Shown here: piece after piece, positions 3,262-11,385 of the stretch
How positions within the stretch are numbered: the stretch's first letter is position 1
Layout: each line of letters begins with the position of its first letter
Assembly: GCA_947626755.1 (NCBI GenBank)
Contig: CANQTP010000007.1
Span: forward strand, 1 to 64,000
Length of the DNA: 64,000 nucleotides
Direction: 5' to 3'
Source: an uncultured Clostridia bacterium
Lineage (GTDB): Bacteria > Bacillota > Clostridia > Oscillospirales > Ruminococcaceae
The notes under the pieces: generated by a model
Database searches by the model: none
The model's input: the letters and a program-made list of their open reading frames with translations, nothing else
Told to the model about the DNA's origin: nothing
Made by a program: the position numbers and the translations under genes

Positions 3262-4323
3262 TCACAAAATCGGTCTCCGCCACGTAATTTCCGCGATCTT
3301 TGCCGAAAGCTTTTCCGCGGCTTTGCGGTGGGTCACGAAGTTTGGATGTTTTTCCGAACCAATGCCGTCCTCGGGCTTCTGAACGTCCAGCCTTAACGCA
3401 AATATTCTGCTGTCACCAATCTCCCGCACCGCGTTCTCAATGTTCGGGAACAGCTCGTCTCCCATCATTCCGAGAACACATATTATATACGGGTCGGGAT
3501 TCTTCTTTCTTATGTTCCCGATAAAATCTTTATATGCTTTCTCAAATCCACGTAAACGTTCGGGAATATCCTTTGTATAAGTCGCATCGTTAGTCCCGAG
3601 GTTCACAACTATCACATCGGGACGGAATTTTTCAAAATCCCAAGGAATATGCTCCTCTATGCCCAACGTTCCTTCAATGCCTATGTCGGTGTAGTCGTAA
3701 AGCATGGGCATTACCCAGCCGTCATTGATATTGCCGTCACTTGTGGAACTTGAATAAACGCCGATACTGCTCCATGAAATTAAATTGAAGTCCGCTCCGA
3801 AACGCCGCGCCGTCAGCGCAGCATAGTTTATGCAGGGATTTTCCGTTTCAGTGCGGAAACCTTCCGTTTCGTCCTTGCCTTCGATCCCGAAACCGCAGGT
3901 AATGCTGTCACCTACAAATTCAATTTTCATTTCCCGCGGCTCTGTGGGAGAAATTTCCCCGTCCGCGGAAATGCTCTTTATTCCGATCTTGTCAAACGCC
4001 GACTCGGAAAGCTTAACTATGCGTATCTTCACTGTTTCCGCACTGTCGCTTCTGTAAATTTCATACTCCGACGTTCCCGACTCCACCGCAAAGCGTTTCC
4101 GCGGCGTTTCCTCATCATTTACAAAAACAGCCATATAGCCTTGGAAAATGCCTTTCCAAGGCTCGTCCAAAGTCCAGTCCGTCCACAGTTCCGCGGAAAG
4201 TTCCCTGCCCGTGAACATGAACTCAATTCCCGAACAGCTCCAGCTGAGATAGCGTGTATTGTCACGGAACAGCGTTCTGCCCAGAGCGCGGACTGTTCTA
4301 TCATCGGCGAAAAAATTTTTCAT
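3262..4323 (-). CDS. CE2-like SGNH/GDSL carbohydrate esterase
   Basis: The protein has 353 residues. The N-terminal third (FTGRELSAEL onward) resembles the jelly-roll domain of carbohydrate esterase family 2. It is followed by an SGNH hydrolase domain with the nucleophile in VGDSIT (Ser140), the Asn block in NLGTND, and the His block KHPNFVTH near residues 325-332. CE2 enzymes remove O-acetyl groups from xylan or glucomannan and may transfer acetyl groups to glucose C6. No signal peptide or membrane segment is visible, so it should act in the cytoplasm on imported acetylated sugars, unlike secreted relatives. It is the last gene of the ABC-transporter operon, 19 bp after the thioesterase gene. 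The substrate is inferred from the family. Confidence 0.82.
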   Translation of the reverse strand: MKNFFADDRTVRALGRTLFRDNTRYLSWSCSGIEFMFTGRELSAELWTDWTLDEPWKGIFQGYMAVFVNDEETPRKRFAVESGTSEYEIYRSDSAETVKIRIVKLSESAFDKIGIKSISADGEISPTEPREMKIEFVGDSITCGFGIEGKDETEGFRTETENPCINYAALTARRFGADFNLISWSSIGVYSSSTSDGNINDGWVMPMLYDYTDIGIEGTLGIEEHIPWDFEKFRPDVIVVNLGTNDATYTKDIPERLRGFEKAYKDFIGNIRKKNPDPYIICVLGMMGDELFPNIENAVREIGDSRIFALRLDVQKPEDGIGSEKHPNFVTHRKAAEKLSAKIAEITWRRPIL

Positions 4324-4342
4324 TGAAATACCCCTTTATATT

Positions 4343-4786
4343 TTATTCGGGAATTTCCCTTATATCCATGTTGACATAGTCGTTAAAAACTTTGTAAATT
4401 TCGGGAAAGTCTCTTTTCACCCGCACAGGCTTCAGGTCAAGATCCGTAAAGCAGTGCTTCGTCTCCCCCGTTGTGAGAAGCGTTCCGTCCGCCTTGTTTA
4501 TAACTTCATATGAAACGGTCATTTTAAAACCGTTATATTCGGTAATTTTCGGAATAATTATAACTCTGTCCCCGAAACGCGCAGACGACTTGTATTCGCA
4601 GGACGCTCCCAGAACTATTATCATGATCCCCATATCTTCCATTTTGTCGTAGGAAAATCCCACCTGCTCGAGGAAATCCACCCTTGCGTCCTCAAACCAG
4701 CGTACATAATTGGAGTGGTGAACTATCCCCATCTGATCCGTTTCGTAATAGCTTACCCTGTGTTCGTAAAGTTTTATCTTCTGCAT
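4343..4786 (-). CDS. hot-dog fold acyl-CoA thioesterase (YbgC/4HBT type)
   Basis: This 147-residue protein carries the YbgC/4-hydroxybenzoyl-CoA thioesterase signature YYETDQMGIVHHSNYVRWFE near the N-terminus, including the catalytic Asp of DQMG. The whole length fits a single hot-dog domain. It should hydrolyse short- or medium-chain acyl-CoA in the cytoplasm. It lies between the PASTA/serine-hydrolase gene (24 bp upstream) and the CE2-like esterase (19 bp downstream), all on the minus strand. Why an acyl-CoA thioesterase shares this operon is unclear; recycling of acyl groups is one possibility. Confidence 0.88.
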   Translation of the reverse strand: MQKIKLYEHRVSYYETDQMGIVHHSNYVRWFEDARVDFLEQVGFSYDKMEDMGIMIIVLGASCEYKSSARFGDRVIIIPKITEYNGFKMTVSYEVINKADGTLLTTGETKHCFTDLDLKPVRVKRDFPEIYKVFNDYVNMDIREIPE

Positions 4787-4810: not shown

Positions 4811-6169
4811 TTAATCGGCAATATCTTCCTCATCAATACCCGGTATCTCATCGGAAGGTATGCTGCCGCTGTTTTCATTTTCTGATGGTATGCCGCCGTT
4901 TTCGGCATAAATGTTTCTGAAAATTTCGTGAAACATATCCGTTGCCGCCGCAGCGTTTATGAAAGGCTCCGTATCCGCAGTTTCACCCGTTCCGCGGCTG
5001 TACATCACAAGGATATATTCATTCCCTTCTCCGCCCGAAACAATAGCGCACTCGCCTAACGTGTAGTAATCTTCCTGCGGCAGAAAGCCGTACTTTTCCG
5101 CAATTTCCTTATCCGGAAGTGCGGAAGAAAACATATCATAATCGGTGTTTGTCATGCAGTCATGCATAAACCCGCCGTTTTCATTCTGATGTATGAAATT
5201 GCAGATCTCCTTGAAATAAACTGCGGATTCTCTTGCCGTCAGTCTGAACCAGTAATTGTCCTTCGTCATTCTCTGGGGAAGTCCCAGACTTGCAGCGTAG
5301 CTGTTGAATTTTTCATATCCGATATAGTTGTAAAGCATTTTGTAAGCGGTGTTGTCGCTTTTCACAAGAGCCGCTTCTATAAGTTCCCGAACGGTAAATT
5401 TTGTCCCAACAGGCTTCCCGCCGATAAGCTCCGAAGGGCTGTTGAGCATTTCCTCCGTCATTTCATACTCCGCATCAAGATCCACAGATCCGTCAAGAAT
5501 GCTCCTTGCGTAAATTGCCTTTATGATACTTCCTGCCGAAAATCTTTCGTCCGCGTTGTACTCCATGCTGCACCCCGTGGACGTGTCATAATATAAATAG
5601 CTCACATCTACGCCAAACGGACGGAGTATATCATAAAGTTCATTGTAAATATCCTCAAACATTGGGTCGTTAATGTCAAATCCCGGTGAACTGAGTTCAA
5701 CTTCCTCATCGGGAATGTATTTTTCAAATTCCGCCGCGGCATTCCCTACAGCTGCCGCGGCGGTTTCGGAAACAGTCTCTTCCGTCACGGGAGTATCAGC
5801 CGTTTCAGCGACCGTAACGGCAGTTTCGGAAGTTTCCGCGCCGCTGCTTACAACAACTTCCACTTCCGAACCCCTTGCACATTCTTCCCCCGCTTCAATG
5901 CTCTGGGAAATGACTGCGCCTTCGGAATATTCTTCCGAATACTCCCTGCCGCTTTCTTTTATGACTATAAGGTCTTTGTAATAATCCGCCGCTTCCTCAT
6001 AGCTGTAACCCACAAGGTCGGGCATAAGGATCATCTCATCTTTTTTCTCTATACCGCCGCTGTCCGTTCTGAAAACAGTGTAATACCCGATCCCGCCCAT
6101 AATAAGAAGCGAAACGAGAATGATCATTACACTTATGAGTTTTTCGTAAACTATCTCCGATCTTAACAT
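4811..6169 (-). CDS. membrane-anchored PASTA-domain protein with class A beta-lactamase-like serine hydrolase
   Basis: This 452-residue protein has a membrane anchor at about residues 11-33 and one PASTA repeat at about 46-110 (starts MPDLVGYSYEEA). A Thr/Glu/Ala-rich linker leads to a serine-hydrolase domain of the class A beta-lactamase/transpeptidase fold. The motifs SIIK (Ser214/Lys217) and SDN (271-273) are present. A clear KTG is not found: the expected strand reads VSGGEG. PASTA repeats bind muropeptides or uncrosslinked peptidoglycan, so the protein probably acts on, or senses, the cell wall outside the membrane. It follows the ABC permease by 24 bp. It could be an active hydrolase with an altered third motif or a binding-only protein. 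Confidence 0.85.
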   Translation of the reverse strand: MLRSEIVYEKLISVMIILVSLLIMGGIGYYTVFRTDSGGIEKKDEMILMPDLVGYSYEEAADYYKDLIVIKESGREYSEEYSEGAVISQSIEAGEECARGSEVEVVVSSGAETSETAVTVAETADTPVTEETVSETAAAAVGNAAAEFEKYIPDEEVELSSPGFDINDPMFEDIYNELYDILRPFGVDVSYLYYDTSTGCSMEYNADERFSAGSIIKAIYARSILDGSVDLDAEYEMTEEMLNSPSELIGGKPVGTKFTVRELIEAALVKSDNTAYKMLYNYIGYEKFNSYAASLGLPQRMTKDNYWFRLTARESAVYFKEICNFIHQNENGGFMHDCMTNTDYDMFSSALPDKEIAEKYGFLPQEDYYTLGECAIVSGGEGNEYILVMYSRGTGETADTEPFINAAAATDMFHEIFRNIYAENGGIPSENENSGSIPSDEIPGIDEEDIAD

Positions 6170-6193: not shown

Positions 6194-9100
6194 TTACTCT
6201 ATTGCTTTTAACGATGTCGCCATATCTATTTTTTTCAGACGGAAATACAGCGTTATGTTCACCAGAAGCGCAAACGCCAGCGTAAGCGCAGCCGCCGCCA
6301 AAAAGCAGTAAACGGGTATTCCCGGCGCAAACATCACCGCATCGACTTCAGCCGTTTTTACAACGAATTTTTCAAGGAATATCCCCAGAACCAGTCCCGC
6401 AGCCGTACCCATAAGCGTTGAGACCATGTTTTCCCTGTAAATATACGCCGCCACTTCTCCGTCATAGAATCCCAGAACTTTTATTGTTGCAAGTTCGCGG
6501 ATACGCTCGTTTACGTTGATGTTTGAAAGGTTGAACAGCACTACGAACGCAAGCGCTCCCGCCGAAACGATTATTGCCACAACTATCAGCGAAAGACTGT
6601 CCACAAGGTCGCGGAACTTGTCTCCGCCGTCTTCGGAATATGTCACCGCAAGAACATCGTCATTTTGCAGCAGCTTTTCCGAAAGTTCGTCCGAACGCTC
6701 CGTATCGGTCATGTCAAGCAGGAACATATTCCCCGAAAATCCGTCCATGCCGAGCTTGTTGTAAGTCTCTTTCGTCATATATGCGTAATTGAAAGTGTAG
6801 TTCTCGCAGATGGCGTCCACCGCAACAGGAACGGTGCTTTCCCCGAAATATACCCTGTCATTCACCGAAACGCCTAAAAGCCGTGCAAGCTTTTCGCCGA
6901 TAATAACGCCGCCGCCAAGCGAAACGGGAGCTTTCCCAACACGTTCGTGCAGGTCTATGAAATCTCCGAAATTATCATTCGTATCGGGAACCAGAAGGTA
7001 AGTTTCATAACTGTCGCCGTCAACGTTGCGGATATCCTCTGTGATCTGCATTACAAGCTTGCTTTCGCTGACGATCCCCGAATCCGCACAGTCGGCGGAA
7101 ACAGCTTCATAATCGGCTTCTCCGTCACTGTCGTCAACTGCGGCAATTGCATCATACCTGAAAATATCCCCGTACTGACGATCCACAATAGCGGTGATGG
7201 ATTCCCGCAAGCCGAATCCCGTCAGCAGGAGCGCGGTACAGCCCGCAATCCCTATTACCGTCATAAGCAAACGAGCCTTGTATCTGAAAAGATTGCGGTA
7301 TGTGACTTTGGTGGTAAATTTAAGACGTTTCCAGATAAATCCTATACGTTCCAGAAGAATACGCTTGCCGTCCTTTGGCGGCTTGGGACGCATAAGCTGT
7401 GCGGGGCAGGAAACAAGTTCCTGCCTGCTTGCGTAAAGTGAGGAAAGTCCCGTGCAAAGGCACGCCGCCACAATGCAGCCTATGGCGTAATCCCAGCGGA
7501 ATTCCGAAATAAGATAGGGCTGGCTGTACATACTCTGATAGCAGACGAAAATTACCCGCGGCAGCGTGTTAAAACCTATCAGCAGCCCGATAAATCCTCC
7601 CGGAATGCTTGCTGCCATAGCGTAAAGTATATACTGGGAAATTATAGTAAATCTGCTGTAACCAAGTGCTTTGAGAGTTCCTATCTCGGTGCGCTGTTCC
7701 TCGACCATACGTGTCATTGTAGTCCAGCAGACAAGTGCCGCAACAAGAATGAAGAATATGGGGAAAACCGCCGCTATGGCGTCAACGCGTTCGCAGTCCT
7801 CGGCATAGTGGGAATAGTAGGGATTGTATTCGCGGTCGAAAACATACCATTCCGCATCGTCCACCGCATCATGAGCTTCCTGCTCCGCATCGGCAATTTC
7901 CTGTTTTCCGTCGGCAATCTCCGTGCGGGCGTCCTCAAGTTCGGCTTTTCCGTCCGCAAGTTCCGCTTTTGCATCTTCAAGCTCGGCTTTTCCGTCTGCA
8001 ATTTCCTGCTTTGCATCTTCAATTTCCTGTCTGCCGCTTGCAAGTTCGGCTTCTGCATTGTCAAGTTCGGTCTTTGCATTGTCAAGCCGGATCCTCGACT
8101 CCGCAAGTGTGTTTTCCAGTTCACGAGCCTGTGCGGAAATTCCCGCCGCGTATTGGGAAATTCCCTGTCCCGCCGCTGTTTTGGCATCATCATCATATCC
8201 GGGCGGAGTCATCATATACGCCGTAAGAAGCTGTTTCAGCGTATCATCAACAGTGAAAAGTCCGCCTGTTTCCAGTGTGGAAACAACTTCATTCACCGCA
8301 TTTTCGTCCGTAACGGAACTGTTTCCGTAAGCAGCAACAATGCCGTTCAGGTATTCCGCAAGACCGTCAAGGGCGGGAACCGCTTCAAGACCGTTGTTAT
8401 ACTCCTCTTCGCCGTCGGCAAGTTCTTTTCTGCCGTCGGCGATCTCCTTTTCGGCGTCTGCAAGTTTTGCTTCGTTTTCGGCAATTTCCGCTTCGCCGTC
8501 TGCAATTTCCTTCTCGTGATCGGCAATTTCCTTTTCACCGTCGGAAATTTCCCGCTCGCCGTCCGCAAGTTCCTTTTCCGCATCGGCAAGTTCGGCTTTG
8601 GCATCGTCTATTTCCTCATAGGCTTCGTCCAGAATAATGCCTTTTCTATGCTCGATCTGCGTTTCCGCAAGCTTTTCAAGAACTTTGGTATTCTTTTCAA
8701 CAATGTTTTCGTATTCTTCGGTGTACGGGTCAACGCCGTCAGCTTCCGCAAGGCTTATGTAAACGTCCGTATAGATGTCGTAGGCAAAATTTTCCTCGGG
8801 AATGAGCAGCCAGCCGTTTATAACGCCGTTGCCTATGGAAGCGTTTCCCCGCTCGTAAGCTATGTAAACGGGAGATTTCGCCTTGCCCACAATTGTAAAT
8901 TCCGTATTTGAAAGATAGTCGGAAATTTCCCTGTCATCACCTGTTTTCAGGACGATCTTATCCCCCACGTTCGGAGTGGACGCGTTAAAGAAGCGTTCGT
9001 CCGCAATGATCTCATCGGGGGCTTCGGGAAGCCGTCCTTCCACAAGATACGGCTTGTTTATGCCGCTGTCAGGGTCGTAGGAATAAACTTTCAGGATCTT

Positions 9101-9406
9101 TCCGTCCAGTTCCCCGCCGTCCGCAACAAGTTCAGCGGAATAACCCGCGTAGACTTCATCGGAATGGGCGGCATTTTCCGCAGCGGAGACGTCCTCATCG
9201 TCAAATCCCAGTTCGGAAAGCAGGTGTATATCCGCCAGACCCTGTTCGTCAAGGTACCGGGCGGAACTTTTTTTCATGTCCGAACCCGCCGCTTTTACGC
9301 CTGCAAAGAATCCGCTTCCTATTGCAATGATGGCAAGTATTGCCAGAAATCGACTTTTGGTGTTCTTCAGGCTGCGGACAGTGTTCAGGAATAGTCTTTT
9401 CTTCAT
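6194..9406 (-). CDS. large FtsX/MacB-type ABC transporter permease with extracytoplasmic coiled-coil repeats
   Basis: This 1070-residue permease has an N-terminal membrane helix (FLAILAIIAIGSGFFAGV) and a long extracytoplasmic region. Two FtsX-type membrane blocks follow, at about 545-690 and from about 925 to the end. Two heptad-like coiled-coil blocks (about 262-342 and 432-519) are built from units such as ELADGEREISDGEKEIADHE. This resembles the large putative ABC permeases of Firmicutes whose coiled coils project into the wall. Its ATPase partner is encoded 12 bp upstream. The substrate is unknown; MacB/FtsX families often act as mechanotransmitters rather than pumps, and the PASTA protein downstream supports a cell-wall role. 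Confidence 0.9.
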   Translation of the reverse strand: MKKRLFLNTVRSLKNTKSRFLAILAIIAIGSGFFAGVKAAGSDMKKSSARYLDEQGLADIHLLSELGFDDEDVSAAENAAHSDEVYAGYSAELVADGGELDGKILKVYSYDPDSGINKPYLVEGRLPEAPDEIIADERFFNASTPNVGDKIVLKTGDDREISDYLSNTEFTIVGKAKSPVYIAYERGNASIGNGVINGWLLIPEENFAYDIYTDVYISLAEADGVDPYTEEYENIVEKNTKVLEKLAETQIEHRKGIILDEAYEEIDDAKAELADAEKELADGEREISDGEKEIADHEKEIADGEAEIAENEAKLADAEKEIADGRKELADGEEEYNNGLEAVPALDGLAEYLNGIVAAYGNSSVTDENAVNEVVSTLETGGLFTVDDTLKQLLTAYMMTPPGYDDDAKTAAGQGISQYAAGISAQARELENTLAESRIRLDNAKTELDNAEAELASGRQEIEDAKQEIADGKAELEDAKAELADGKAELEDARTEIADGKQEIADAEQEAHDAVDDAEWYVFDREYNPYYSHYAEDCERVDAIAAVFPIFFILVAALVCWTTMTRMVEEQRTEIGTLKALGYSRFTIISQYILYAMAASIPGGFIGLLIGFNTLPRVIFVCYQSMYSQPYLISEFRWDYAIGCIVAACLCTGLSSLYASRQELVSCPAQLMRPKPPKDGKRILLERIGFIWKRLKFTTKVTYRNLFRYKARLLMTVIGIAGCTALLLTGFGLRESITAIVDRQYGDIFRYDAIAAVDDSDGEADYEAVSADCADSGIVSESKLVMQITEDIRNVDGDSYETYLLVPDTNDNFGDFIDLHERVGKAPVSLGGGVIIGEKLARLLGVSVNDRVYFGESTVPVAVDAICENYTFNYAYMTKETYNKLGMDGFSGNMFLLDMTDTERSDELSEKLLQNDDVLAVTYSEDGGDKFRDLVDSLSLIVVAIIVSAGALAFVVLFNLSNINVNERIRELATIKVLGFYDGEVAAYIYRENMVSTLMGTAAGLVLGIFLEKFVVKTAEVDAVMFAPGIPVYCFLAAAALTLAFALLVNITLYFRLKKIDMATSLKAIE

Positions 9407-9418
9407 GGACTCACCTCG

Positions 9419-10120
9419 TTACCACTCGATAGTTTCCACGGGAACGGGGTTTTCGTTCAGAGTGACCCGCGAGACTTTGCTGTTTTTTATCTTTATGACT
9501 CTGTCCGCCATGGGAGTTATTGCCTGATTGTGAGTTATAACGACTACCGTCATGCCCTTTTCCCGACAGGTGTCCTGCAAAAGTTTCAGGATCGTCTTGC
9601 CTGTATTGTAGTCAAGCGCACCTGTTGGTTCGTCGCAAAGCAGCAGCTTGGGAGATTTTGCCAGAGCCCTTGCAATGGAGACTCTCTGCTGTTCGCCGCC
9701 CGAAAGCTGTGCGGGGAAATTGTTTATTCTCTCTCCGAGACCCACCTGTCTGAGAACTTCCTCCGCGTCCTCTGCATCGGAACATATTTCCGTTGCAAGT
9801 TCAACATTTTCCTTTGCGGTAAGGTTCTGCACAAGGTTGTAGAACTGGAAAACAAATCCAATATCCTGACGGCGGTATCTGGTCATTTCCTTTTTTGAAT
9901 AGGCGGCAATATTCTTGCCGTCAACGAATATTTCCCCCTCGTCGCAGGTATCCATGCCGCCCAGCATATTCAGAACGGTGGTCTTGCCCGCGCCCGAAGC
10001 CCCCACGATAACGGCGAACTCTCCTTTTTCTATCTCGAAGCTTACGCCGTCGGAAGCAGCAATAGTAACTTCTCCCATTTTGTACCGTTTAAAGACATTT
10101 TTAAATTCAACAAAGCTCAT
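9419..10120 (-). CDS. ABC transporter ATP-binding protein (MacB/LolD type)
   Basis: The ORF is open from 10231, but the real start is the ATG at 10120 ([14 protein letters not shown]), with GAAAGGA 12 bp upstream. The longer form begins in the promoter region. The 233-residue protein has Walker [10 protein letters not shown], a Q-loop (FQFYNL), the signature LSGGEQQR, Walker [12 protein letters not shown] and the switch His (ITHN), typical of ATPases that energise FtsX-type permeases. It is the first gene of a five-gene minus-strand operon and presumably forms the complex with the permease that follows 12 bp later. Confidence 0.95.
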
Positions 10121-10326: not shown

Positions 10327-11385
10327 ATGAGCGATATAAACGAAAAGATCCCCGAAACTGCGGCGGTCACCGAAACTGAACACTCTCCGCGGAAAAATAC
10401 GGCTAAAATTGCATTAAAGCCCGCAATGAGCATATTCTTCACAATGCTTGCGGTGATAATCTGCCTTGCGGCGGCGGTAATAATTCTTGCAGTCAGAGTG
10501 GGAAAAGCCGATGAGGAGGAAGAAATTCCCGAAGATGCCGAGGAAGTTTTCGTTCCCGTTGTCAATGAGCGGGTATACGATTTCTTCGACGAGGACGACA
10601 CCATTCTCTTTGACGATCCCACATACGGACAGATATGGCTGCCAACATTAAGCAACGTTCCCAAGCATACATATGACTACAGCGGGCTTAAACTTGAAAA
10701 CGGACGCTATACATACAGCGAAAACGGCGAAGTTATCTCCCGCACAGGAATAGACGTTTCTTATCATAACGGAAACATCGACTGGAACAGAGTCGCGGCT
10801 GACGGCGTGGATTTTGCAATACTCCGCGTGGGTTACAGAGGTTACGAAAGCGGACAGATCAACCTTGACTCAAATTTCCACAGCTATATAAACGGCGCAC
10901 TGAACGCAGGTCTTGACGTGGGAGTGTACTTCTATTCGCAGGCTGTGAATTCCGATGAAGCCATAGAAGAGGCAAATTTTGTCATGGAGCAGATCCACGG
11001 CTATGATGTAAAGTTCCCGATAATTTTTGACTGGGAGGTCACCGAAGAGGAAACTTCCCGCACCAACAATGCCGCGCCCCATGTAGTAACGGAATGTGCT
11101 GCGGCGTTCTGCGATACCATAACTGACGGCGGATATACTCCCATGCTTTACGGCAGCAGGAAATTTGCCCTTATGAAGCTTGATCTCAGCAAGCTCCCGA
11201 AGGTGGATTTCTGGTTCGCCGAATACAAGGACGGTCACAACGAACCCAGCTATCCATATAATTATCAGATTTGGCAGTACGCCAGTGACGGAAGCGTGGA
11301 CGGCATTGAAGGCGATGTTGATATGAATATCTGCTTTGCGGATTACGGCAGGACAATTCCTGCAGAAAATACAGACGAAACATAA
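10327..11385 (+). CDS. membrane-anchored GH25 muramidase (1,4-beta-N-acetylmuramidase)
   Basis: The protein has 352 residues: a cytoplasmic N-terminus, one membrane segment (about 33-57), an acidic linker, and a GH25 domain from about residue 138. The catalytic acidic residues appear in GIDVSYHNG (Asp143) and IIFDWEV (Asp235, Glu237). GH25 enzymes cut the N-acetylmuramic acid-(1,4)-N-acetylglucosamine bond of peptidoglycan. The absence of a signal-peptidase site suggests it stays tethered and acts on nascent or nearby wall. ATG at 10327 follows GAGGAATAAAAA. The epimerase-like gene follows 17 bp later and is probably co-transcribed up to the terminator at 12292. Confidence 0.92.
   Translation: MSDINEKIPETAAVTETEHSPRKNTAKIALKPAMSIFFTMLAVIICLAAAVIILAVRVGKADEEEEIPEDAEEVFVPVVNERVYDFFDEDDTILFDDPTYGQIWLPTLSNVPKHTYDYSGLKLENGRYTYSENGEVISRTGIDVSYHNGNIDWNRVAADGVDFAILRVGYRGYESGQINLDSNFHSYINGALNAGLDVGVYFYSQAVNSDEAIEEANFVMEQIHGYDVKFPIIFDWEVTEEETSRTNNAAPHVVTECAAAFCDTITDGGYTPMLYGSRKFALMKLDLSKLPKVDFWFAEYKDGHNEPSYPYNYQIWQYASDGSVDGIEGDVDMNICFADYGRTIPAENTDET

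Follow-up and report, generated by a model that had tools for sequence, protein, structure and literature searches.

The window analysed here, a stretch of 64,000 nucleotides from an uncultured Clostridia bacterium of the gut, contains a gene (positions 4811-6169, minus strand) coding for a protein of 452 aa, hereafter the PASTA-hydrolase, in which a transmembrane anchor is followed by a PASTA repeat, a linker and a class A beta-lactamase-like domain. Full-length orthologues sharing 40-72% identity with it were found, and therefore the open reading frame is not a chance one. Hydropathy revealed a hydrophobic segment at approximately residues 11-34 and the structural model a helix at residues 3-36; the anchor was assigned to residues 12-34 (6068-6136, minus strand), with a predicted N-in orientation and a cytoplasmic part of about 11 residues that bears no signalling domain. 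The single PASTA repeat occupies residues 49-109 (5843-6025, minus strand; Pfam PF03793, 5.2e-14), and its 52.4 bits, against a gathering cut-off of 23.2, place the product among PASTA-domain proteins. It is followed by a fast-evolving linker rich in Thr, Glu and Ala (residues 112-165; 5675-5836, minus strand; 39-50% identity to close relatives), and by the catalytic domain (residues 166-420; 4910-5674, minus strand), of which residues 192-390 matched PF13354 (Beta-lactamase2; 2e-24, 86.6 bits against a gathering cut-off of 22). In an AlphaFold2 model made with 18 relatives the PASTA repeat and the catalytic domain were confidently predicted and the linker was disordered (pLDDT below 50 over most of residues 114-152). 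An earlier note on this DNA had described one PASTA repeat with a membrane anchor, and a serine hydrolase domain with SIIK and SDN motifs (located here at residues 214-217 and 271-273), and both descriptions were confirmed.

Alignment of the catalytic domain with the PC1 beta-lactamase of S. aureus (HMMER), conservation among relatives and the structural model were used to assign the catalytic motifs. Motif 1, S214-I-I-K217 (5519-5530, minus strand), corresponds to Ser70 and Lys73 and was invariant in 18 orthologues. Motif 2, S271-D-N273 (5351-5359, minus strand), corresponds to Ser130-Asn132, its Ser and Asn being kept in 85 out of 85 homologues sampled from the family up to the phylum level. 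The earlier note had placed the sequence VSGGEG in the position of the KTG motif, and this assignment had to be abandoned: the stretch IAEKYG of the PASTA-hydrolase pairs with VADKSG of PC1, and K359, Y360 and G361 (5087-5095, minus strand) are invariant in 18 sequences and lie inside the predicted beta3 strand (residues 355-364). VSGGEG (residues 377-382; 5024-5041, minus strand) spans the turn of a hairpin between predicted strands 369-378 and 385-393, varies among orthologues and is non-catalytic. Pairing with PC1, invariance and strand position thus indicated that motif 3 is present, as KYG. The complete set of acylation residues (Ser, Lys, Ser, Asn and Lys) is invariant in the 18 orthologues, and across the 85 homologues Lys73 was kept in 84, Ser130 and Asn132 in 85 each and Lys234 in 84; this conservation argues for an active enzyme. 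At position 235 the same 85 sequences carry Tyr in 53 cases, Ile in 16 and Ser in only 6, so Tyr at this position is a habit of this group of related Bacillota proteins.

Further features set this active site apart from that of standard class A enzymes. In the alignment to PC1, Arg300 and Asn305 correspond to Arg164 and Asn170, and Thr302, invariant in the 18-row alignment of the PASTA clade, takes the position of Glu166; the omega-loop region (R300-M-T-K-D-N-Y-W-F308; 5246-5272, minus strand) is shortened, and the Glu166-x-x-Leu-Asn omega loop of class A enzymes is absent. No counterpart of Arg244 was seen when the alignment was judged by eye. Glu166 activates the deacylating water in class A enzymes, and the DD-peptidase PBP-A, which shares this fold, likewise lacks it (PMC11189452). 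Fold matches of the catalytic-domain model were class A enzymes; 1OME, an omega-loop deletion mutant of PC1, ranked second and had the highest target TM-score (0.78) among the matches listed. The class A signatures Ser70-x-x-Lys73 and Ser130-Asp131-Asn132 were found (S214-I-I-K217 and S271-D-N273), and of Lys234-Thr/Ser235-Gly236 the Lys and Gly are kept with Tyr as residue 235. The NCBIfam model bla_class_A gave 59.6 bits against a cut-off of 200, and PF00905, for class B PBP transpeptidases, 13.5 bits against a Pfam cut-off of 22.1. The missing Glu166, Tyr at 235 and the failure to reach the NCBIfam cut-off led us to reject a class A beta-lactamase identity. The departure from a standard class A site on which the earlier note had staked its proposal was therefore borne out, through the loss of Glu166, the short omega loop and Tyr235 and not through loss of KTG. 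From these sequence features the catalytic domain resembles a DD-peptidase-like acyl-enzyme hydrolase, and Tyr235 together with the missing Arg244 counterpart could mean weak recognition of beta-lactams or of D-Ala-D-Ala.

The PASTA repeat was compared with those of the PrkC-type kinase encoded in the same genome. Across orthologues, identity was 36-46% to PASTA1, 9-22% to PASTA2 and 22-36% to PASTA3 of the kinase, and among the kinase repeats PASTA1 gave the best alignment score with each copy in alignment A1 that has a PASTA repeat. The NCBIfam PASTA-kinase model (NF033483, PknB_PASTA_kin) covered the region from the transmembrane segment through the PASTA repeat with 41.6 bits against a cut-off of 450; no kinase domain was matched in the PASTA-hydrolase, which is thus not a PASTA Ser/Thr kinase. 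A common origin of the PASTA repeat and the juxtamembrane part of the kinase is the simplest reading of these pairwise alignments. The muropeptide tuning suggested in the earlier note would have its basis in this likeness to PASTA1.

Two genes transcribed in the same direction lie upstream: an ABC ATPase of 233 aa (9419-10120, minus strand; PF00005, 3.9e-37), whose upstream position is conserved, and, 12 bp from it and 24 bp from the PASTA-hydrolase gene, a permease of 1070 aa (6194-9406, minus strand) made of two FtsX-type units. Pfam placed two FtsX domains in this single chain, hydropathy gave 8 hydrophobic segments, and there are two extracellular regions; a low-confidence model (pLDDT 64, pTM 0.38) showed a long hairpin built from two helices, each of some 110-130 residues. 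The first extracellular part holds a heptad-like coiled-coil region with the sequence ADGEKEIADGE (residues ~230-516; 7859-8719), and permease length ranges from 985 to 1238 aa across orthologues. The best PDB match of the low-confidence model was E. coli YbbP (9GE6, E 6e-16). As in YbbAP, fused permease units with two extracellular domains are accompanied by a separate ATPase (Pfam, hydropathy and the fold match to 9GE6); the 10 transmembrane helices of YbbAP were not found, hydropathy giving 8 segments. With the NCBIfam model of Gram-positive FtsX (FtsX_Gpos) the score was 16.7 bits, where the cut-off is 225, and two units with 8 segments replace the single 4-TM unit of FtsX, which ruled out the cell-division FtsX as the identity of this permease. 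The FtsX-type ABC system of the earlier note consequently stood in part: an FtsX-like permease gene does lie 24 bp upstream, but its product scores far below FtsX cut-offs and has its best structural match in YbbP.

All 17 testable loci have the order ABC ATPase, permease, PASTA-hydrolase, even where identity falls to 40%, and their flanking genes change. Testable loci were those in which the contig reaches the permease (14 from the genus itself, a further two from genomes of a second genus and another from an Oscillospiraceae MAG), a copy starting at a contig edge (L077) being left out of the count. The conserved link with the permease on which the earlier note had made its proposal depend was accordingly found, with every one of these PASTA-bearing copies directly downstream of the permease among otherwise differing neighbours; none of the testable copies lay away from it. 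The permease was detected in 87 of 149 genomes of the family and the hydrolase in few. At the loci examined in the wider family, mostly unrelated genes follow the permease, and in three species of the same genus (G007, G010 and G012) the permease gene is still present, with unrelated genes after it. In two further genomes (G008 and G002) the contig stops by the permease, and genome searches gave no PASTA-bearing copy. The permease tree is compatible with presence of the hydrolase at the base of the clade followed by at least two losses. In these genomes the dependency is one-sided, the permease doing without the hydrolase and the PASTA-hydrolase not being seen without the permease. Since the permease often lacks a hydrolase neighbour, also in the three species of the same genus, a complex of ABC system and hydrolase is not obligate.

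The PASTA repeat is missing from two members of the catalytic clade: L022, a second copy in genome G015, and L034, from genome G156. Both have lipoprotein-like N-termini, the permease was not found beside either, and a search of the whole of G156, which is 100% complete, gave zero permease matches. These cases, only two independent ones, suggest that it is the TM-PASTA part which goes with the permease. L022 (1246-3171, plus strand) carries SSN instead of SDN and a C-terminal extension of about 230 residues. A lipoprotein-like paralogue with SVMK, SDN, KYG and an additional C-terminal region is encoded on another contig (C27) of the genome of the window (L002:1075-2343, minus strand), and paralogues of this type are present in most genomes of the genus.

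Other genes around the trio were also considered. Downstream, in the same close-spaced run, positions 3262-4786 contain a gene for a CE2/SGNH esterase without signal or TM segment and one for a YbgC-type thioesterase. The downstream YbgC, CE2 and HtrA genes are conserved in the closest species only, for which reason they were not regarded as core and were dropped from the unit. A gene for a TM-anchored GH25 (lysozyme-type) protein (10327-11385) diverges from the ABC operon; it was discarded as a member, no homologue having been found near the other copies examined. Between the genome of the window and its closest relative (G019), flanking proteins are 90-100% identical with dS of 0.34-0.52. 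The PASTA-hydrolases of this pair (4811-6169 in the window and L062:10001-11359) share 71% identity with a dS of 1.08 (catalytic part: dS 1.29, dN 0.15). No such elevated divergence was seen in other close pairs, and therefore one of the two lineages probably acquired a divergent hydrolase allele by recombination.

Each half was already known, and what is new is the combination with the YbbP-like ABC system. Searches with the profile of alignment A1 across sampled genomes of the order, class and phylum revealed no fusion of PASTA and PF13354 outside the clade, no match spanning both domains; a search of plasmids gave a single weak match to the catalytic domain. Literature searches for a published protein with PASTA and PF13354 and an ABC partner yielded no relevant description.

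As a rule, type VII ABC systems act via an extracytoplasmic partner, and to our knowledge this partner is not known for many Gram-positive members. Our preferred reading, held tentatively and at somewhat less than an even chance, is that the PASTA-hydrolase is an ABC-coupled, PASTA-targeted serine hydrolase of the cell envelope. It is built on domain make-up, acylation residues, loss of Glu166, the operon and the joint absence of PASTA and permease in two relatives, from which we infer enzyme activity, substrate, PASTA ligand and physical coupling. The protein would be a membrane-tethered serine acyl-enzyme hydrolase (or acyltransferase) acting outside the membrane, with the membrane-proximal PASTA repeat placing or tuning it at nascent or uncrosslinked peptidoglycan, its presumed ligand. 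Ser214, activated by Lys217 with Ser271 and Lys359, would attack an amide or ester of a wall-related substrate, the bond most likely being stem-peptide D-Ala-D-Ala or similar; with the class A Glu166 missing, the enzyme does not appear to be built to clear beta-lactams. The neighbouring type VII-like ABC complex, whose action is probably exerted outside the membrane, may have the hydrolase as an extracytoplasmic partner that it can do without: ATP use would alter the extracellular domains of the complex, so presenting substrate to the hydrolase or switching it. That a YbbP-like type VII ABC system recruited a beta-lactamase-fold hydrolase with a kinase-related PASTA repeat as an ATP-driven wall-sensing hydrolase complex is a bolder version, which we put forward as a possibility with less confidence.

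The intact acylation motifs would also suit an independent low-molecular-mass enzyme resembling DD-carboxypeptidases or endopeptidases, targeted to the wall by its PASTA repeat and merely co-expressed with the ABC genes. The wide occurrence of the permease without hydrolase and the lipoprotein-like L022 and L034, which exist without PASTA or permease, fit such independence, but the trio is kept while all other neighbours turn over and no copy with PASTA turned up apart from the permease; we therefore consider this explanation rather unlikely. Loss of Glu166 and a short omega loop with the acylation residues kept would also be expected of a sensor, one that beta-lactams or stem peptides acylate, that is slow to deacylate and that passes a signal to the ABC complex, and the TM-PASTA arrangement, spanned by the PknB_PASTA_kin match, is receptor-like. 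Its few cytoplasmic residues without signalling domain, and Tyr235 with the missing Arg244 counterpart, which speak against beta-lactam binding, make a sensor improbable. About as improbable is an esterase or lipid hydrolase that takes membrane-extracted substrates from the permease, as TesA does in E. coli: the top permease fold match is YbbAP, which forms a lipid hydrolase complex with TesA (PMC12646458), and the fusion of a serine hydrolase with a membrane anchor is compatible with this, but the permease model is of low confidence, the fold differs from that of TesA, and PASTA with PF13354 indicates peptidoglycan. An antibiotic-inactivating class A beta-lactamase, suggested by the PF13354 match and the fold, is very improbable given the absence of Glu166, Tyr at 235 and the bla_class_A score of 59.6 against 200.

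If the bolder version is true, the pairing of a YbbP-like ABC system with the PASTA-hydrolase would have its analogues in YbbAP-TesA and FtsEX-PcsB, from which it would differ in its enzyme fold and in having a targeting domain of its own. The trio suggests a little-studied way to power or steer cell-envelope enzymes. The conserved three-gene operon names a candidate ABC partner that can be easily expressed and assayed. The KYG group of PF13354 proteins is large, its members are easily labelled as beta-lactamases or serine hydrolases, and it retains the acylation machinery; in the PASTA-hydrolase clade the deacylating Glu is gone, so that such labels should not be taken to mean antibiotic resistance.

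Among known systems, PBP-A of Thermosynechococcus, a class A-like DD-peptidase compared here by its description, shares with the PASTA-hydrolase the class A-like fold, SxxK chemistry and the missing omega-loop Glu; it differs in being known only from cyanobacteria, and neither PASTA nor an ABC partner is mentioned in its description (PMC11189452). The PASTA kinases PrkC, PknB and StkP also have a TM segment followed by a PASTA repeat, that of the PASTA-hydrolase being closely related to PASTA1 of PrkC, whereas the PASTA-hydrolase has no kinase domain and continues after its repeat with a serine hydrolase, where the kinases have more PASTA. Transpeptidases of the PBP2x/PBP1 type likewise combine PASTA with an SxxK/SxN/KxG enzyme in one membrane-anchored protein, but the PASTA-hydrolase has PF13354 instead of PF00905 and only one repeat, placed before the enzyme and not after it. 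FtsEX with CwlO, PcsB or RipC is, like the trio, a type VII-type ABC system beside or acting on an extracytoplasmic wall enzyme; the trio permease differs in its two fused units and scores far below FtsX models. The CwlO, PcsB and RipC hydrolases belong to another enzyme class than the serine acyl-enzyme type with PASTA. The type VII ABC system YbbAP bears TesA, a serine hydrolase, on its periplasmic domains (PMC12646458). Like the trio, it combines a separate ATPase with two fused permease units that have two extracellular domains, and the gene of a serine hydrolase lies alongside; it differs in the SGNH fold of TesA, against a beta-lactamase fold with PASTA, and in its 10 TM helices, against 8 hydrophobic segments plus a long predicted helical hairpin. 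By this analogy, and with no claim of membership, the locus most works like YbbAP-TesA.
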